Of a stretch of DNA of 64,000 bases, positions 2,587 through 38,015 are shown one piece after another; within the stretch, counting starts at the first letter, position 1; every line of letters starts with the position of its first letter. A model generated the notes under the pieces. That model ran no database searches. It was not told where the DNA came from and was given only the letters and a program-made list of their open reading frames with translations. The translations under genes were made by a program, and so were the position numbers. Source of the DNA: Agromyces sp. Root81 (GTDB lineage Bacteria > Actinomycetota > Actinomycetes > Actinomycetales > Microbacteriaceae); assembly GCF_001429165.1 (NCBI RefSeq), contig NZ_LMIR01000004.1, positions 442,923-506,922 on the forward strand, read 5' to 3'.

Positions 2587-3977
2587 CAGGCCACTGTATC
2601 TGCGGTCGTGGCGGCGGCATCGGCTTCGATGTCGCCGCGGCGGAGGGGGTACTTGCGCAGGGCGACGAGGCTCGCTGCGACGAGCAGTGCCGGGATCGCG
2701 CTGAAGCTGATCGCGATGCCGGCGATCGCGGCCGGCGACTGGGTCACCGTCTGGGAGCCCACCGACTCGACGTAGCCGGTGAGGGCGAGCACGATCGTGA
2801 GCACGGTGGCGCCGAGCGCCATGCCCGCGGTCTCCCCCGCCGTCCAGACGCCGCCGAAGCTGCCGGCGCGGCCGATGCCGTGGGTGCGGGCGTCGTGCGA
2901 GATGACGTCGGGCAGCATCGCCATCGGCAGCGACTGCATGCCCGCGTAGCCGGCGCCCGCGAGCGCGACGGGCACGTAGACCCACGCGCCCGGCGCCCAG
3001 ATCATGCCGACGAGGCTGAGGGCGGCGATGCCGAAGAGGGTGCTCGCGAGCGCGAACCCGCGCTCCTTGCCGACGCGGCGGGCGACCGCCTGCCAGACCG
3101 GCGCGAACAGTACGGCCGGGCCGATGAGGGCGACGAAGAGGTAGGTCACCGCGCGCTCGTCCTGGAGCACCCAGGTGGCGACGAACTGCGCACCGGCGAG
3201 CATGAGGCCGGTCGCGAGGCCTTGCAGCACGAACGCGACGAGCAGCGCGCGGAAGGCCGCGCTGCGCTTCACGGCGGCGAAGCCCTCGGCGTAGCCGGCA
3301 CGGATGTCGCGGCGCGGCGGGGCATCCGTCGAGGCGCTGGGCTTGGACGCACTGCCCTTCGCGGCCGTCGACGTCGCGACGAACATGCCCGCCCCGATCA
3401 CGAGGCCGGCGATGATCGCCATCACGAGGTAGCCCGTGTGCTCGTCCTCGAACGCCGCCCGGATCTCGGGGCCGCCGGCGCCGAAGAGCAGGATCGCGAT
3501 CGTGAGCACGACGACGCGCCAGGTGAGGAGCCGCGTGCGCGCGTCGTAGTCGGCCGTGAGCTCGGCCGGCAGCGCGATGTAGGGCACCTGGAAGAGGCTG
3601 AACGCCGTCGCCGTGGCGAGGAAGGTCAGGAACACCCAGGTGCCGGATGCCCCGGGGTCGAGGCCCGCGGGCACGGCGAAGGTCAGCACGAAGCCGACGG
3701 GCAGCGCGAGCGCGCCGACGACCATCCACGTGCGGCGGGTGCCCGTGCGGGCGAGCGCCCGGTCGCTGCGCTCGCCGATCCACGGGTCGATCACGACGTC
3801 CCAGACCTTCGCCGCCGTGACGACGAGTCCCGCGACGAGGGCGGTCACGCCGAGCGTGTCGGTCAGGTAGTACACGAGCACGAGGCCGGGCAGCGTGGCG
3901 AAGCCGCCCGTGCCGATGGAGCCGATCGCATAGCGGGCTACGACACCGCGGGTCAGGGAACGCTCCGATGCGGTCAT
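2586..3977 (-). CDS. GPH-type (MFS_2) sugar/solute:cation symporter
   Basis: A membrane transporter of about 463 aa with twelve predicted hydrophobic segments, resembling the glycoside-pentoside-hexuronide/cation symporter family (MelB-like). Family-like features are the DVVIDPWIGERSD loop after the second helix and the GSFGGVWTAGETAGMALG stretch in the C-terminal half. The start is set at 3977 (MTASERS) rather than 4028, because the longer version would run through two 20-bp direct repeats that look like an operator. It is the first gene of a two-gene operon with the PLP enzyme and may import that enzyme's substrate. Divergent from the aldehyde dehydrogenase at 4067. The substrate is not readable from sequence. 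Confidence 0.82.
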   Translation of the reverse strand: MTASERSLTRGVVARYAIGSIGTGGFATLPGLVLVYYLTDTLGVTALVAGLVVTAAKVWDVVIDPWIGERSDRALARTGTRRTWMVVGALALPVGFVLTFAVPAGLDPGASGTWVFLTFLATATAFSLFQVPYIALPAELTADYDARTRLLTWRVVVLTIAILLFGAGGPEIRAAFEDEHTGYLVMAIIAGLVIGAGMFVATSTAAKGSASKPSASTDAPPRRDIRAGYAEGFAAVKRSAAFRALLVAFVLQGLATGLMLAGAQFVATWVLQDERAVTYLFVALIGPAVLFAPVWQAVARRVGKERGFALASTLFGIAALSLVGMIWAPGAWVYVPVALAGAGYAGMQSLPMAMLPDVISHDARTHGIGRAGSFGGVWTAGETAGMALGATVLTIVLALTGYVESVGSQTVTQSPAAIAGIAISFSAIPALLVAASLVALRKYPLRRGDIEADAAATTADTVA

Positions 3978-33977: not shown

Positions 33978-34742
33978 ATGTCTTCCGCACGACGACTGCG
34001 ACTCGAGGTCGTCATCGTGCTCGGGCTGTCGCTCGGGGCATCCGCTGTCTATTCGATCGTCTCGATCGTCGCGAAGGTCACCGCCGAGACGCCGCTGGGC
34101 GAGCAATCCGTCGCGCTGAACCCGTCGCGGGCACCCCGCGAATGGCTCGACTTCACGTACCAGTTCCTCGACGTGTTCTTCGGCCTGTTCGCCGTCGCGC
34201 TCGTGCTCTACCTGCTCTGGGCTCCGGGCACGAACCCCTTCCGCCGCATCGGCCTCGACCTGACGAGACCGGGGCGCGACGCGGCATCCGGTGTGCTGCT
34301 GGTCGCCGCGATCGGCGTGCCGGGGCTCGCGCTCTACGCGCTCGGCCGTGCGCTCGGCCTGACGGTCGCGGTCGAGGCGTCACCCGCCGACTGGCTGTGG
34401 TGGACGGTGCCGATCCTCGTGTTCCGGGCCCTCGAAGCGGCGCTCACCGAGGAGGTCATCGTCGTCGGCTACCTCTTCGCGAGGTTCAGGGAGCTCGGAG
34501 TCGGCCCGTGGGCGACGATCCTGTCGAGCGCGGTGCTGCGCGGCAGCTACCACCTCTATCAGGGCTTCGGCCCCTTCTTCGGCAACGTCGCCATGGGTGT
34601 CGTGTTCGGCTGGTGCTACCAGCGCTGGGGCCGCACGATGCCGCTCGTCATCGCGCACTGGATCCTCGATGTCGTGTCGTTCGTCGGCTATCCGCTCGCC
34701 GTGGGCTGGTGGCCGGGGCTGTTCGCCGTCTCGACCGGCTGA
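33978..34742 (+). CDS. CPBP-family intramembrane metalloprotease-like protein
   Basis: A 254-aa membrane protein of the CPBP/Abi group (PF02517), with about seven hydrophobic segments. The two-glutamate motif is TEEVIVVGYLFAR, but the usual arginine of the EExxxR pattern is replaced. The second motif is LRGSYHLYQG and the third is AHWILDVV. The actinobacterial RGSYHL subgroup looks like this. Peptidase activity is plausible but unproven. The start is the ATG at 33978; ribosome binding is weak. It is divergent from the opp operon. The 3' end overlaps an antisense ORF (34688-35140) by 55 bases. Confidence 0.8.
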   Translation: MSSARRLRLEVVIVLGLSLGASAVYSIVSIVAKVTAETPLGEQSVALNPSRAPREWLDFTYQFLDVFFGLFAVALVLYLLWAPGTNPFRRIGLDLTRPGRDAASGVLLVAAIGVPGLALYALGRALGLTVAVEASPADWLWWTVPILVFRALEAALTEEVIVVGYLFARFRELGVGPWATILSSAVLRGSYHLYQGFGPFFGNVAMGVVFGWCYQRWGRTMPLVIAHWILDVVSFVGYPLAVGWWPGLFAVSTG

Positions 34743-35140
34743 GCTGTGCGAACCGGATGCCTCGTGCGGGAAGCGCGCGGCACGTGCTCGCTCCGACCGA
34801 GCGCGACCACGGTCGTCGGCATCGGCGGCAACGACTCCTCGGCGGCTTCGACCCGCAGGTCGGAGTCGATGCCCCGAACCCGGGCCAGGTCGAGCCCGCT
34901 GCGCCTGGACGGCGTGCAGACGGCGGAGTAGAAGCCCTCGTCGCCGAAGACGCTGCCGCTGGAGAAGTCGGTGATCGACTGGGCTCTTCGCAGCGCCTCC
35001 GCCGTTGCCGGATCACGTCGCTCGAGGAGCCCCGCGCGCTGTTCGAGCCCGAGGCCGCGGCCCGCGAGCATCGAGGTGCCGACGAGGAATCCCACGAACC
35101 CGACGGTGGTGAGCACCGCGATGAGATCGACGGACATCAT
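34688..35140 (-). CDS. Hypothetical protein with an N-terminal membrane segment
   Basis: A 150-aa ORF. A hydrophobic N-terminal helix (about residues 5-28) precedes a polar region of some 70 residues (RRAQSITDFSSGSVFGDE, FYSAVCTPSRRSG) and a low-complexity tail. A ribosome site (GAGGGGG) stands upstream of the paired ATGs at 35137/35140. I do not recognise a family. It converges with the CPBP gene and overlaps it by 55 bases at the 3' end, so the last 18 codons are antisense to it. Codon third positions fit the window in the first two thirds of the ORF. It may be real but could be shorter. Confidence 0.55.
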   Translation of the reverse strand: MMSVDLIAVLTTVGFVGFLVGTSMLAGRGLGLEQRAGLLERRDPATAEALRRAQSITDFSSGSVFGDEGFYSAVCTPSRRSGLDLARVRGIDSDLRVEAAEESLPPMPTTVVALGRSEHVPRASRTRHPVRTAQPVETANSPGHQPTASG

Positions 35141-35331: not shown

Positions 35332-35547
35332 ATGACACTCGCCGCAGCCTTCGCCGCAGGTCACCTCGCGGCCCGCACCGCCGACCGCCGCTTCCGCGCG
35401 ACGGAGTCGGAGATCCGCGCGGCGCACGAACGCGTCGCGGCTCGGCGCACCGCCGTCGTCGCCGCTGCCGCGCCGGCGCCCGCTCCTGCCGCCGCACGGC
35501 GCGAGTACACGGAGCGCGGCCGTCACGCGGCACCGCGCCCCGCATAG
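35332..35547 (+). CDS. Small alanine/arginine-rich hypothetical protein, 71 aa
   Basis: A short ORF with a helical, alanine- and arginine-rich sequence (LAAAFAAGHLAARTADRRFR, EIRAAHERVAARR) and a proline/alanine-rich tail. A weak GGA lies upstream of the ATG at 35332. There is no recognisable family. It stands between a hypothetical gene and the lipoprotein gene, converging with the latter 12 bases before its stop. Composition alone cannot separate it from a chance ORF in this high-GC context. Confidence 0.45.
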   Translation: MTLAAAFAAGHLAARTADRRFRATESEIRAAHERVAARRTAVVAAAAPAPAPAAARREYTERGRHAAPRPA

Positions 35548-35558
35548 TCGCTTCGCCG

Positions 35559-36059
35559 TCAGCCGCCGATCTTCTCCCCGGCCGGGCTGAGCACCCACCA
35601 CACGCCGTTCACGCCCTGGCCGTTGGTGTCGCCGGCGGCGCTGTCGCCCGCGAAGTAGTAGAGCGGCCAGCCGTTCAGCGTCACCTGCGTCGAGCCGTCG
35701 ACGCCCGTGATGGTGCCGACCTCTCCCGTGACACCCTCGACCTCGGGGGCATCCGAATCCGTCGTCACGGCGGGCCAGTTGGTGGCGCACTGCCCTTCGC
35801 AGCTGCTCGCCTCCGCACCCTGGGTGTCGTTGTCGAACATGTAGACGACCATGCCCTCGCCGTCGACCACGATCTCGCCGAGCGCCGAGTCCGCGGTCGT
35901 GAGGAGGGCGTCGGACGCCTCAGCACCCATGTCGGGCGCTTCGGTCTCGGTCGAGGTGCCGCCCGTCTCCGCGGGCTCCTCCGCCGCTGGAGCGGAACAC
36001 CCGGCGAGGGCGACGACGAGGCCCATCACGGCCAGTCCTGTTGCGATGCGCAGCTTCAT
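35559..36059 (-). CDS. Lipoprotein with COG4315/Lipoprotein_15 repeats
   Basis: A 166-aa secreted lipoprotein. The lipobox is VALAGC, with the cysteine near residue 21, followed by a Thr/Glu/Ala-rich linker. Two copies of the family repeat follow, each built around a VVYMFDND / PLYYFAGD turn and CxxxCATNWPA-like or NGVWWVLSP ends. The function is unknown; the family is exported and often under ECF sigma or redox control. The start is the ATG at 36059 with AAGGAC upstream. A promoter of the local ECF type lies at 36110-36135. The gene lies downstream of the sigma/anti-sigma operon on the same strand, with its own promoter. Confidence 0.86.
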   Translation of the reverse strand: MKLRIATGLAVMGLVVALAGCSAPAAEEPAETGGTSTETEAPDMGAEASDALLTTADSALGEIVVDGEGMVVYMFDNDTQGAEASSCEGQCATNWPAVTTDSDAPEVEGVTGEVGTITGVDGSTQVTLNGWPLYYFAGDSAAGDTNGQGVNGVWWVLSPAGEKIGG

Positions 36060-36109
36060 GCGAGGTCCTTCTCTCGTACTCACGGCCGCGGTCGCGGCCT
36101 CTCCAGAAG

Positions 36110-36135
36110 CACGAGACGCAGCGCCGGATGGTTCA
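36110..36135 (-). promoter_or_regulatory. ECF-type promoter of the lipoprotein gene
   Basis: On the minus strand TGAACC (36130-36135), 16 bases, then CGTG (36110-36113). The 25 bases from 36135 to 36111 match the equivalent stretch before the sigma gene at 20 positions. The start codon follows about 50 bases downstream. Confidence 0.7.
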
Positions 36136-36182
36136 ACGGAGGGGCGACCCGCACCGACCACCGCGGCCGCGACGGCCGCAGA

Positions 36183-36896
36183 TCAGTCGAACTCGCTCCG
36201 CATGAGCACCTCTCCGCTGCCCATCGCGCGGATCTCGAGCGACGCGATCTCGTCGAGGTCGAGGGCGGCGCCCGCCGACAACCTGGCTGCCGCCCCGGGG
36301 CTCGCCCGCCAGCTCGAGACGTCGGTGCGCGCGCCGTCGCGATCGACGACCACCAGCGCGTACGGCCAGCCGTCGGCCGGGACATCGGATGCCCCGGACT
36401 CGGCGTAGCGGCAGTCGAGCTCGATCTTCGTGCCCCACGCGACCTGCGTGAGCGTCGCCGTCGCGGACAACGGCGCCTCGGCGACGGACTCGAATGCGAT
36501 GGCCTGCGAGACGACCGGCGGCTGGAGTGCGACGAGCGGCACCGCGATCGCGGCGATGACGACCACGGCCGCCGCAGCGGAGGCGATCCACCACGTGCGG
36601 GTCCTGCGGCGCCGACGGCGCCGATCCTCGAGGCGCACCACGTCGAGGAGGTCGTCGCGGGGACCGCGTGCCGGTTCGGCGTCCGCACCGGCGTCGGCTT
36701 CTCCGAGGAGGGCGGTGGCCCGCTCGGGCGAGAGCCGCGCGAGGAGCCCCGGCATCGGAGCGAGTTCGGCGACCGATCGGCGGCACAGCTCGCACGACTC
36801 GAGGTGATGCTCGTACTCGCCGCGTTCGACGGGCGAGAGCGCGCCGAGCACGTAGGCGGAGTCCCAGTCCGCGAAGCGCGCGTGATCCGGGTTCAT
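36183..36896 (-). CDS. Anti-sigma factor with zinc-finger and RskA-like C-terminal domain
   Basis: A 237-aa single-pass anti-sigma factor. The N-terminal cytoplasmic part carries the zinc anti-sigma motif EHHLESCELCRR (H-x3-C-x2-C) near residues 29-39, after the SAYVLGALSPVERGEYE stretch. A membrane helix lies at about 102-125 and the extracytoplasmic domain resembles RskA. It binds and silences the sigma factor encoded directly upstream, until proteolysis or a redox change releases it. The start overlaps the sigma-factor stop by four bases (ATGA), so the two are made together. Its presence suits an envelope-stress circuit. Confidence 0.9.
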   Translation of the reverse strand: MNPDHARFADWDSAYVLGALSPVERGEYEHHLESCELCRRSVAELAPMPGLLARLSPERATALLGEADAGADAEPARGPRDDLLDVVRLEDRRRRRRRTRTWWIASAAAAVVVIAAIAVPLVALQPPVVSQAIAFESVAEAPLSATATLTQVAWGTKIELDCRYAESGASDVPADGWPYALVVVDRDGARTDVSSWRASPGAAARLSAGAALDLDEIASLEIRAMGSGEVLMRSEFD

Positions 36897-37399
36897 CGCG
36901 TCACCCCTTTCTCCTGCAGCGCGAGCCGCAGCGCCCGAAGCCCGTAGTGCAGCCGGGACTTCACCGTACCCTCAGGGATGCCGAGCCGCCGTGCGACCTC
37001 GGCCACGCTGCATCCGCCGTAGTAGGCGTGCACGATCACCGCGCGATGCTCCATGCTCAACGTCACCAGCGCCTCCTCGACCAGCAGGCTCTCGAACAGG
37101 GCGTCGGTCGCGTCGTGGGCCACTCGCTCCGGCGTCTCGGCGACGCCGATCTCGTGGCGTCGCCGTGCACTGCGCGCCTCGTCGATCACGAGGTTGCGGG
37201 CGACCGTGATCATCCACGACCTCGTCGACGCCGGCTCCTGAGCCAGGATGCGGGGGCTCCGCCAGGCCCGGAGCAGGGTCTCCTGCACGATGTCGTCGGC
37301 GCCAGCTGCGTCACCCGTGAGGTGCACCACGTACCTCCACACCGACGGACCGTGCGCATCGTAGAGCGCGACGAGCCGGCTGTCGTCGTCGAGCGGCAT
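36893..37399 (-). CDS. ECF sigma factor
   Basis: A 168-aa extracytoplasmic-function sigma factor. Region 2 (about 10-75) includes the -10 recognition helix near DDIVQETLLRAWR and ARNLVIDEARS. Region 4 (about 110-160) includes VAEVARRLGIPEGTVKSRLH, the -35 helix-turn-helix. The ATG at 37399 sits six bases after AGGAGG. It directs RNA polymerase to the promoter type seen here three times (TGAACC-N16-CGT). Autoregulation is likely, since one copy stands before this gene. It resembles SigK-type pairs with RskA-like anti-sigma factors, but no group assignment is certain. Confidence 0.92.
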   Translation of the reverse strand: MPLDDDSRLVALYDAHGPSVWRYVVHLTGDAAGADDIVQETLLRAWRSPRILAQEPASTRSWMITVARNLVIDEARSARRRHEIGVAETPERVAHDATDALFESLLVEEALVTLSMEHRAVIVHAYYGGCSVAEVARRLGIPEGTVKSRLHYGLRALRLALQEKGVTR

Positions 37400-37426
37400 C
37401 CATCACCTCCTGTTCCCTGCCCGGAG

Positions 37427-37452
37427 AACGAGACGGCGGTCCGAATGGTTCA
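37427..37452 (-). promoter_or_regulatory. ECF-type promoter of the sigma/anti-sigma operon
   Basis: On the minus strand TGAACC (37447-37452), 16 bases, then CGTT (37427-37430), ending 27 bases before the sigma ATG. It is the best-conserved partner of the 36110 promoter and implies that the sigma factor activates its own operon. Confidence 0.7.
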
Positions 37453-37465
37453 TTCGCGGCGACGG

Positions 37466-37491
37466 TGAACCCGAACGGTGCCTGCGACGTG
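37466..37491 (+). promoter_or_regulatory. ECF-type promoter of the DUF2231 gene
   Basis: On the plus strand TGAACC (37466-37471), 16 bases, then CGTG (37488-37491). The ATG at 37500 is 8 bases further, so the predicted transcript is leaderless. The spacing is identical to the two minus-strand copies. Confidence 0.6.
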
Positions 37492-37499
37492 TTCTCGGC

Positions 37500-38015
37500 A
37501 TGGATCCCACGAATCTCGCACCGGTCGCCTCGGAGGACCTCCTCCAGGTCGCGGGCTTGCCACTGCACCCGCTCATCGTGCATGCGGTGGTCGTGCTCAC
37601 ACCGCTCACGGTACTCGCCCTGCTGCTCGGCGCGTTCTGGCCGGCGGCACGCCGGCGCCTCGGCATCGTGACCGCCATCGGAGCGCTCGTCGTACTCGTC
37701 CTCGTGCCGATCACGGTCGTCGCGGGGCGATCCCTCGCGGCCGTCATCGGCCCGGTCCCCGCCGTCGCGCGGCACCAGGGGTTCGGCGAGATGCTGCTGC
37801 CCTGGGCGATCGCGCTCTTCCTCGTCGCGGCGGCCCAGTGGGCGTGGTTCCGCTCCCTCGACGAGCGGATGCGACGCACATCGCCCGGCATCGCCAGAGC
37901 GGTGCGGATCGGCCTCGCCGCGGCATCCGTCGTCGTCGGCGTGGGCACCGCCGTGCTGCTCGTGCTGATCGGAGACTCAGGAGCCCGCGCCGTGTGGGGC
38001 GGGCTCCCGAGCTGA
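37500..38015 (+). CDS. DUF2231 family membrane protein
   Basis: A 171-aa inner-membrane protein. It opens with the family motif GLPLHPLIVHAVVVLTPL and has four hydrophobic segments (about 24-45, 55-78, 98-118 and 142-165). Histidines in the first and third helices (HPLIVH, RHQGFGEM) are typical of DUF2231, whose function is unknown; a heme or redox role has been suggested for related proteins. It is divergent from the ECF sigma operon, with the two promoters back to back, and has no Shine-Dalgarno before the ATG, suiting leaderless expression from the promoter at 37466-37491. The stop lies 16 bases before the gcvP stop (convergent). Confidence 0.83.
   Translation: MDPTNLAPVASEDLLQVAGLPLHPLIVHAVVVLTPLTVLALLLGAFWPAARRRLGIVTAIGALVVLVLVPITVVAGRSLAAVIGPVPAVARHQGFGEMLLPWAIALFLVAAAQWAWFRSLDERMRRTSPGIARAVRIGLAAASVVVGVGTAVLLVLIGDSGARAVWGGLPS

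Follow-up and report, generated by a model that had tools for sequence, protein, structure and literature searches.

A predicted SigL-type regulon with TGAACC-N16-CGT(G/T) promoters in Agromyces sp. Root81

Introduction

Which genes are controlled by the sigma/anti-sigma pair encoded at this locus of Agromyces sp. Root81, and through which promoters? The window, by which we mean the whole 64-kb stretch of DNA that was analysed, had been given a sequence-only reading in which TGAACC, exactly 16 bases and CGT(T/G) recur before the operon of an ECF sigma factor and before the genes of two envelope proteins, called LP15 and DUF2231 here. These sites were proposed to be the promoters of a small regulon. 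The features concerned are listed below.

35559-36059, minus strand: LP15 (Lipoprotein_15 type), a secreted, lipoprotein-like product containing PF03640 repeats (Pfam; NCBIfam)
36110-36135, minus strand: predicted promoter of LP15; -35 TGAACC 36130-36135, -10 CGTG 36110-36113, inferred +1 near 36101
36183-36896, minus strand: anti-sigma factor of RslA type, 237 aa (zf-HC2; PDB 3hug_B; HxxxCxxC; hydropathy)
36893-37399, minus strand: ECF sigma factor of SigL type, 168 aa (Pfam Sigma70_r2/r4; NCBIfam PRK09645; PDB Mycobacterium tuberculosis SigL 6dv9)
37427-37452, minus strand: predicted promoter of the sigma/anti-sigma operon; -35 TGAACC 37447-37452, -10 CGTT 37427-37430, inferred +1 near 37418
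37453-37465, no strand: gap between the two divergent -35 elements, 13 bp (13-14 bp in six congener loci)
37466-37491, plus strand: predicted promoter of DUF2231; -35 TGAACC 37466-37471, -10 CGTG 37488-37491, inferred +1 on the A of the start codon, 37500 (leaderless)
37500-38015, plus strand: DUF2231 membrane protein (PF09990; predicted four-helix bundle)

Results and Discussion

The sigma and anti-sigma factors

The sigma protein, an ECF factor of two domains, is matched by PRK09645, which we take to be the SigL model, at 221.8 bits, above the cut-off of 202. Its best match in the PDB is M. tuberculosis SigL (6dv9, E 5.7e-52), with which it aligns over residues 9–168; the best match to a protein other than SigL has an E-value of 7.2e-15. 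Among named genomes its best matches are found in Microbacterium. The anti-sigma gene overlaps the sigma gene at 36893–36896. Its product matches 3hug_B (E 2.9e-12), the RslA chain (PMC2877774). The protein carries an HxxxCxxC motif at residue 31 and a single strongly hydrophobic stretch at residues 104–122.

A wider set of 101 SigL-related loci was assembled, comprising the window and L079–L178 (80 from named genomes, of 449 confirmed relatives). In this set HxxxCxxC is present within the first 90 residues of 82 of the 93 anti-sigma calls; 11 calls are without it, and the eight of these that were printed resemble truncated gene calls. Residues H54 and D60 of M. tuberculosis SigL, on which specificity at -12/-11 depends, correspond to S48 and Q54 in the sigma protein here. 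This is not taken as a departure from the SigL family, because across the 101 loci aspartate is one of several residues found at that position. The base that follows CGT differs with the residue at the D60 position: aspartate occurs with G in 26 cases, A in eight and neither T nor C, glutamine with G in 27, T in 13 and A in three (p 3e-4 for T), a pairing that stays a hint because kinship is uncorrected and the alignment is gapped there. Judged by these sequence matches, the pair is of the SigL/RslA type and not an unplaced ECF factor.

Three sites in the window and their place in the genome

TGAACC-N16-CGT(G/T) has exactly three matches in the window, at the three places claimed for it, and 100 dinucleotide shuffles of the window gave a mean of 0.16 matches and a maximum of one. 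Two sites face one way and the third is divergent (minus, minus, plus), as the sequence-only reading described, and its figure of 20 out of 25 bases shared by the sigma-operon and LP15 sites is exact when the first 25 bases are compared. The DUF2231 site has 12 of 26 bases in common with each of the other two. The distance from CGT to the start codon is 51 nt for LP15, 28 nt for the sigma gene and 9 nt for DUF2231.

The genome was scanned for the same motif, with genes at the scanned sites called by a purpose-made codon-usage gene caller. The exact word TGAACC-N16-CGTK occurs 24 times in the 4.16-Mb genome and nearly all copies overlap predicted genes, which lends some colour to the idea that the three sites arose by chance in a GC-rich sequence. 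The word alone is not rare, so the signal lies in its position and conservation. Position, spacing and conservation are far above the controls; shuffling and the altered spacers described below led us to reject the chance reading, which we consider extremely improbable.

The shorter form TGAAC-N17-CGT occurs 246 times in the genome. The set inspected consists of 62 TGAACC-N16-CGTN and 38 TGAACT-N16-CGT sites, 100 in all; the other 146 have A or G as the sixth base, and G is found there in some promoters of relatives. Among the 100, only the three window sites lie outside predicted genes with a start within 250 nt. The genome search near starts that the sequence-only reading had proposed thus leads back to the same three places among the variants inspected, and no larger genome-wide regulon was found among the 62 and 38 sites. 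The sites L006, L226 and L242 are clear of predicted genes and have no predicted start within 250 nt. L001 was rejected as an intergenic site since it overlaps the end of a gene, and L005 since its spacing is N17. Eight sites within genes, one of them a TGAACG site, have the next predicted start no more than 120 nt downstream and may be operon-internal promoters. Another of the eight, a TGAACT site at L258, lies 72 nt before a gene whose product resembles MsrA by eye.

Recurrence of the motif in SigL-related loci

The 101 loci are not independent because several are close relatives. In 84 of them TGAAC-N17-CGT is found in the 250 nt ahead of a predicted gene, with 143 such sites in total. Spacers of N15, N16, N18 and N19 gave 2, 0, 4 and 2 upstream sites, and five reversed or permuted motifs gave 0–1 each. 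The genes behind the 143 sites encode the sigma factor (70), LP15 (25), DUF2231 (13), a thiamine-pyrophosphate (TPP) enzyme (11), a Rieske lipoprotein (5), YceI (3), a small membrane protein (3) and other proteins (13). The sigma gene itself has the motif ahead of it in 69 of the 101 loci. Relatives differ in the sixth base of the -35 element and in the base that follows CGT.

The three-promoter layout recurs in Streptomyces avicenniae (L106) and in a Microbacteriaceae bin (L107). Judged by predicted genes, 17 of the 101 loci are without an upstream site; nine of these contain no TGAAC-N17-CGT at all, including three of the four Nocardia loci. No site is present near the predicted start of 15 of 39 LP15 and three of 16 DUF2231 homologues, some of which are errors of start prediction. 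Back-to-back -35 elements within 80 bp of each other are found in 31 loci, in 22 of them at 14 bp or less. The gap ranges from 2 to 66, and a fixed gap was rejected as a general rule.

The TPP-enzyme loci with the motif are ten from Mycobacteriaceae and one from Nocardia (L118). In the Mycobacteriaceae the enzyme gene is near sigL (L114, L117, L120, L123, L125, L128, L129, L130, L138 and L154).

Conservation in congeners and association with the sigma factor

Sixty relatives were searched, 36 of them congeners, and a SigL orthologue (E < 1e-90) is present in 12 congeners. The earlier reading had staked its proposal on the motif being present in relatives' copies of these genes, and in the SigL-containing congeners TGAAC-N17-CGT is kept ahead of the sigma gene in 12 of 12, of intact LP15 genes in 8 of 8 (one site falls within an over-extended gene call) and of close DUF2231 orthologues in 7 of 7. 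LP15, searched at E 1e-15, occurs in 8 of 12 congeners with SigL and in none of 24 without (p 1.6e-5, Fisher test, which ignores kinship). For the close DUF2231 orthologue the figures are 7 of 12 and 0 of 24 (p 9.5e-5, same test, likewise ignoring kinship). When the gap between the sigma and DUF2231 genes is aligned in seven genomes, the -35 and -10 elements are kept and the spacers vary; the single -35 base that varies gives TGAACG for TGAACC in two genomes.

Two further ORFs of the window have counterparts, as judged by eye, in the congeners. A short ORF of about 70 aa beside LP15 (35332-35547, plus strand) has a similar ORF in 11 of 12 congener loci. Between the gene of an Rce1-like protease and the regulon there is a 150-aa ORF with no Pfam match (34688-35140, minus strand), and one like it is present in all 12 congener loci. 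At L195 (G012) a broken LP15 remnant follows the sigma/anti-sigma operon, with the promoter motif still there.

The motif could follow either the sigma factor or the gene family. Among the matches for which a locus was given, DUF2231 homologues away from the SigL locus are found at 21 loci (L205–L225) and are 40–49% identical. Fifteen of them come from genomes with no SigL match at E 1e-30, and in none of these 15 does an intergenic site occur in the 250 nt ahead of DUF2231. In genomes with SigL one of six has a site directly upstream, at 100 nt (L205, G041), and five have none there; at L215 (G029) DUF2231 follows a Rieske gene, and a site lies 136 nt before the latter. In G053 the LP15 gene is about 136 kb from its sigma gene and has a site 38 nt upstream. 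An LP15 homologue of G048, a genome with no SigL match at E 1e-20, is without the motif and adjoins a different ECF sigma gene, 34% identical. On this sequence comparison, it is the sigma factor that the motif accompanies.

Promoters can be shared between ECF factors, and the sigma search gave 48 candidate stretches in this genome, one reaching E 1e-20. A different ECF sigma factor of the genome, rather than the adjacent SigL type, might accordingly read the three promoters, but a motif that stands ahead of the sigma gene in those 69 loci and goes with the presence of SigL makes this a distinctly unlikely arrangement. The adjacent SigL-type factor is the reading followed below.

A leaderless start for DUF2231

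Sixteen DUF2231 homologues occur at SigL loci; they are not independent because eight are those of the window and its congeners, and the others include Streptomyces (L106) and Knoellia (L131). The spacing from CGT to ATG is 9 nt in 14 of them (12 from gene calls, and L084 and L097 as read in the sequence, where the gene calls are over-long) and 10 nt in one (L116). The sixteenth, at L108, has no site of its own; the site there stands before a Rieske gene, which DUF2231 follows. Over all 143 sites the distance to the predicted start has one peak at 9 nt (25 sites), takes no value from 11 to 14 nt and has a second peak at 21–22 nt (21 sites).

The +1 position at the DUF2231 promoter was placed by a spacing rule inferred from the M. 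tuberculosis SigL complex. According to the available part of PMC6372665, this complex performs best when 6 nt separate the -10 element from double-stranded DNA, and it starts 2 nt upstream of that DNA; the same text calls the M. tuberculosis sigL start provisional. Counted out on this spacing, +1 would therefore fall ten bases after the T of CGT, on the A of the DUF2231 ATG. The leaderless message predicted by the sequence-only reading would fit the conserved spacing, which speaks in its favour. It is not universal, because the homologue in G041 has a leader of about 100 nt. The fixed 9-nt spacing makes leaderless initiation by an ECF polymerase cleanly testable on natural promoters.

Possible functions of the regulon members

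LP15 scores 126.6 bits against the NCBIfam SCO0930 lipoprotein model, below the cut-off of 275. Two of its cysteines, C87 and C91, are four residues apart and invariant in 12 sequences. In DUF2231 three histidines (H23, H28 and H92) are invariant in 15 sequences. The structure model of DUF2231 is four-helix (pLDDT 84.1), and fold comparison is uninformative because the top matches are designed bundles, vinculin-like domains and receptor bundles.

At 18 of the 20 loci L206–L225, which are apart from the SigL locus, the gene directly ahead of DUF2231 encodes a Rieske-type lipoprotein, usually with a twin-arginine-like start; the Rieske calls rest on Pfam for three and on a CTHQxC...CPCH pattern in the printed proteins for the rest. 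The second DUF2231 gene of the Agromyces sp. Root81 genome is also behind a Rieske-type gene (L299:2500-3009 and 3012-3548, G000 C1). The cluster motif of the L299 protein is CTHQQC rather than CTHxGC, as it is in 15 of 18 copies from congeners or relatives. In five SigL loci a Rieske lipoprotein gene is behind the motif (Pfam was run on three), and at L108 Rieske and DUF2231 genes follow it in series.

The sequence-only reading called the two outputs envelope proteins of unknown function. With low confidence, this may be narrowed to a set for electron transfer or redox protection: the five relatives with a Rieske gene under the motif and the position of DUF2231 behind Rieske genes in 18 of 20 loci suggest an envelope electron-transfer regulon. 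An extension of the regulon proposal, which adds to it rather than opposing it, is that the outputs form a redox-responsive electron-transfer module, with DUF2231 as a membrane electron carrier and a Rieske or LP15 lipoprotein as its partner on the outer face of the membrane. The invariant histidines, the gene order in this genome and its relatives, the consecutive genes at L108 and an anti-sigma motif of the redox-sensitive RslA kind would all suit such a module. Against it, no haem site was seen in DUF2231, whose four-helix model matches common bundles only, no cofactor was found for LP15 in the searches made, and the SigL-linked DUF2231 of the window has no Rieske neighbour. We regard the module as possible, though less likely than not.

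A broader and more speculative idea, which we hold to be rather unlikely as a whole, is that SigL/RslA originally served actinobacteria as a redox switch governing an outer-face module of this kind (Rieske or LP15 lipoprotein with four-helix DUF2231, and YceI in some), arranged as a bidirectional unit that is driven by feedback and yields DUF2231 from a leaderless message, and that the mycobacterial polyketide/lipid regulon is a later re-use.

Proposed circuit

Motif, conservation, link to the sigma gene, protein families and spacing are all seen in the sequences compared here. We infer promoter activity, start sites, the signal and the nature of the outputs as envelope redox proteins. It is very probable that the SigL/RslA-type pair drives a small, mostly local regulon through predicted TGAACC-N16-CGT(G/T) promoters. 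At rest, the membrane anti-sigma factor would use its zinc-binding HxxxCxxC domain to retain the sigma factor. By analogy with M. tuberculosis RslA, an oxidative or envelope signal would free the sigma factor, which would bring RNA polymerase to the TGAACC-N16-CGT(G/T) promoters. Acting ahead of its own operon, the sigma factor would provide positive feedback, with simultaneous output of LP15 and of the divergent DUF2231, whose message would begin at its own ATG. The regulon first proposed, the sigma factor's own operon and two envelope genes, is in this form supported by motif position, conservation and linkage to the sigma factor.

In M. tuberculosis RslA, oxidation leads to zinc release and disulfide formation, and loss of zinc weakens the hold on SigL (PMC2877774, available part). 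The anti-sigma factor here has the motif of RslA, and homology alone therefore suggests that the trigger may be the same.

Two gene families of no known function become members of a defined, testable regulon, and SigL, which has been studied chiefly in mycobacteria, acquires candidates for its ancestral targets along with a conserved promoter. Distant actinobacteria have the arrangement as well, and there it may govern a set of electron-handling surface proteins.

Comparison with known systems

The regulon members, the Rieske link and the fixed leaderless spacing appear to be new, with no earlier mention among the literature matches listed. In these matches no title links LP15 or DUF2231 to SigL, and no paper was found that pairs DUF2231 with an ECF sigma factor. 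The kind of system and the general promoter type are already known. The -35 consensus published for M. tuberculosis SigL agrees with a TGAACC-type promoter, and the mycobacterial loci in our set have TGAAC-N17-CGT ahead of sigL. The -10 part is described in PMC6372665, whose available text describes the sigL promoter as dependent on SigL and as having CG ahead of a TG-type -10 element.

M. tuberculosis SigL/RslA is the closest of the known systems, being alike in the sigma factor (the alignment to 6dv9 given above) and in an anti-sigma factor with an HxxxCxxC zinc motif and a membrane stretch. It differs in the residues H54 and D60, replaced as described, and CGTT is used here as well as CGTG. 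The M. tuberculosis SigL promoters named in the available part of PMC6372665 are those of sigL, pks10 and Rv1139c, and include neither LP15 nor DUF2231.

Two further systems show likeness. The ECF19 anti-sigma group AS19-1 has the motifs HTLAGAYALDAL and LDDERAAFERHL (PMC7406223, available part), which by eye resemble DWDSAYVLGAL and LSPVERGEYEHHL here. The SigU/RsuA regulon of Streptomyces coelicolor is said to include SCO0930 (PMC6295645, available part), the namesake of the lipoprotein model matched by LP15, and ECF control of an LP15-family protein therefore has a precedent.
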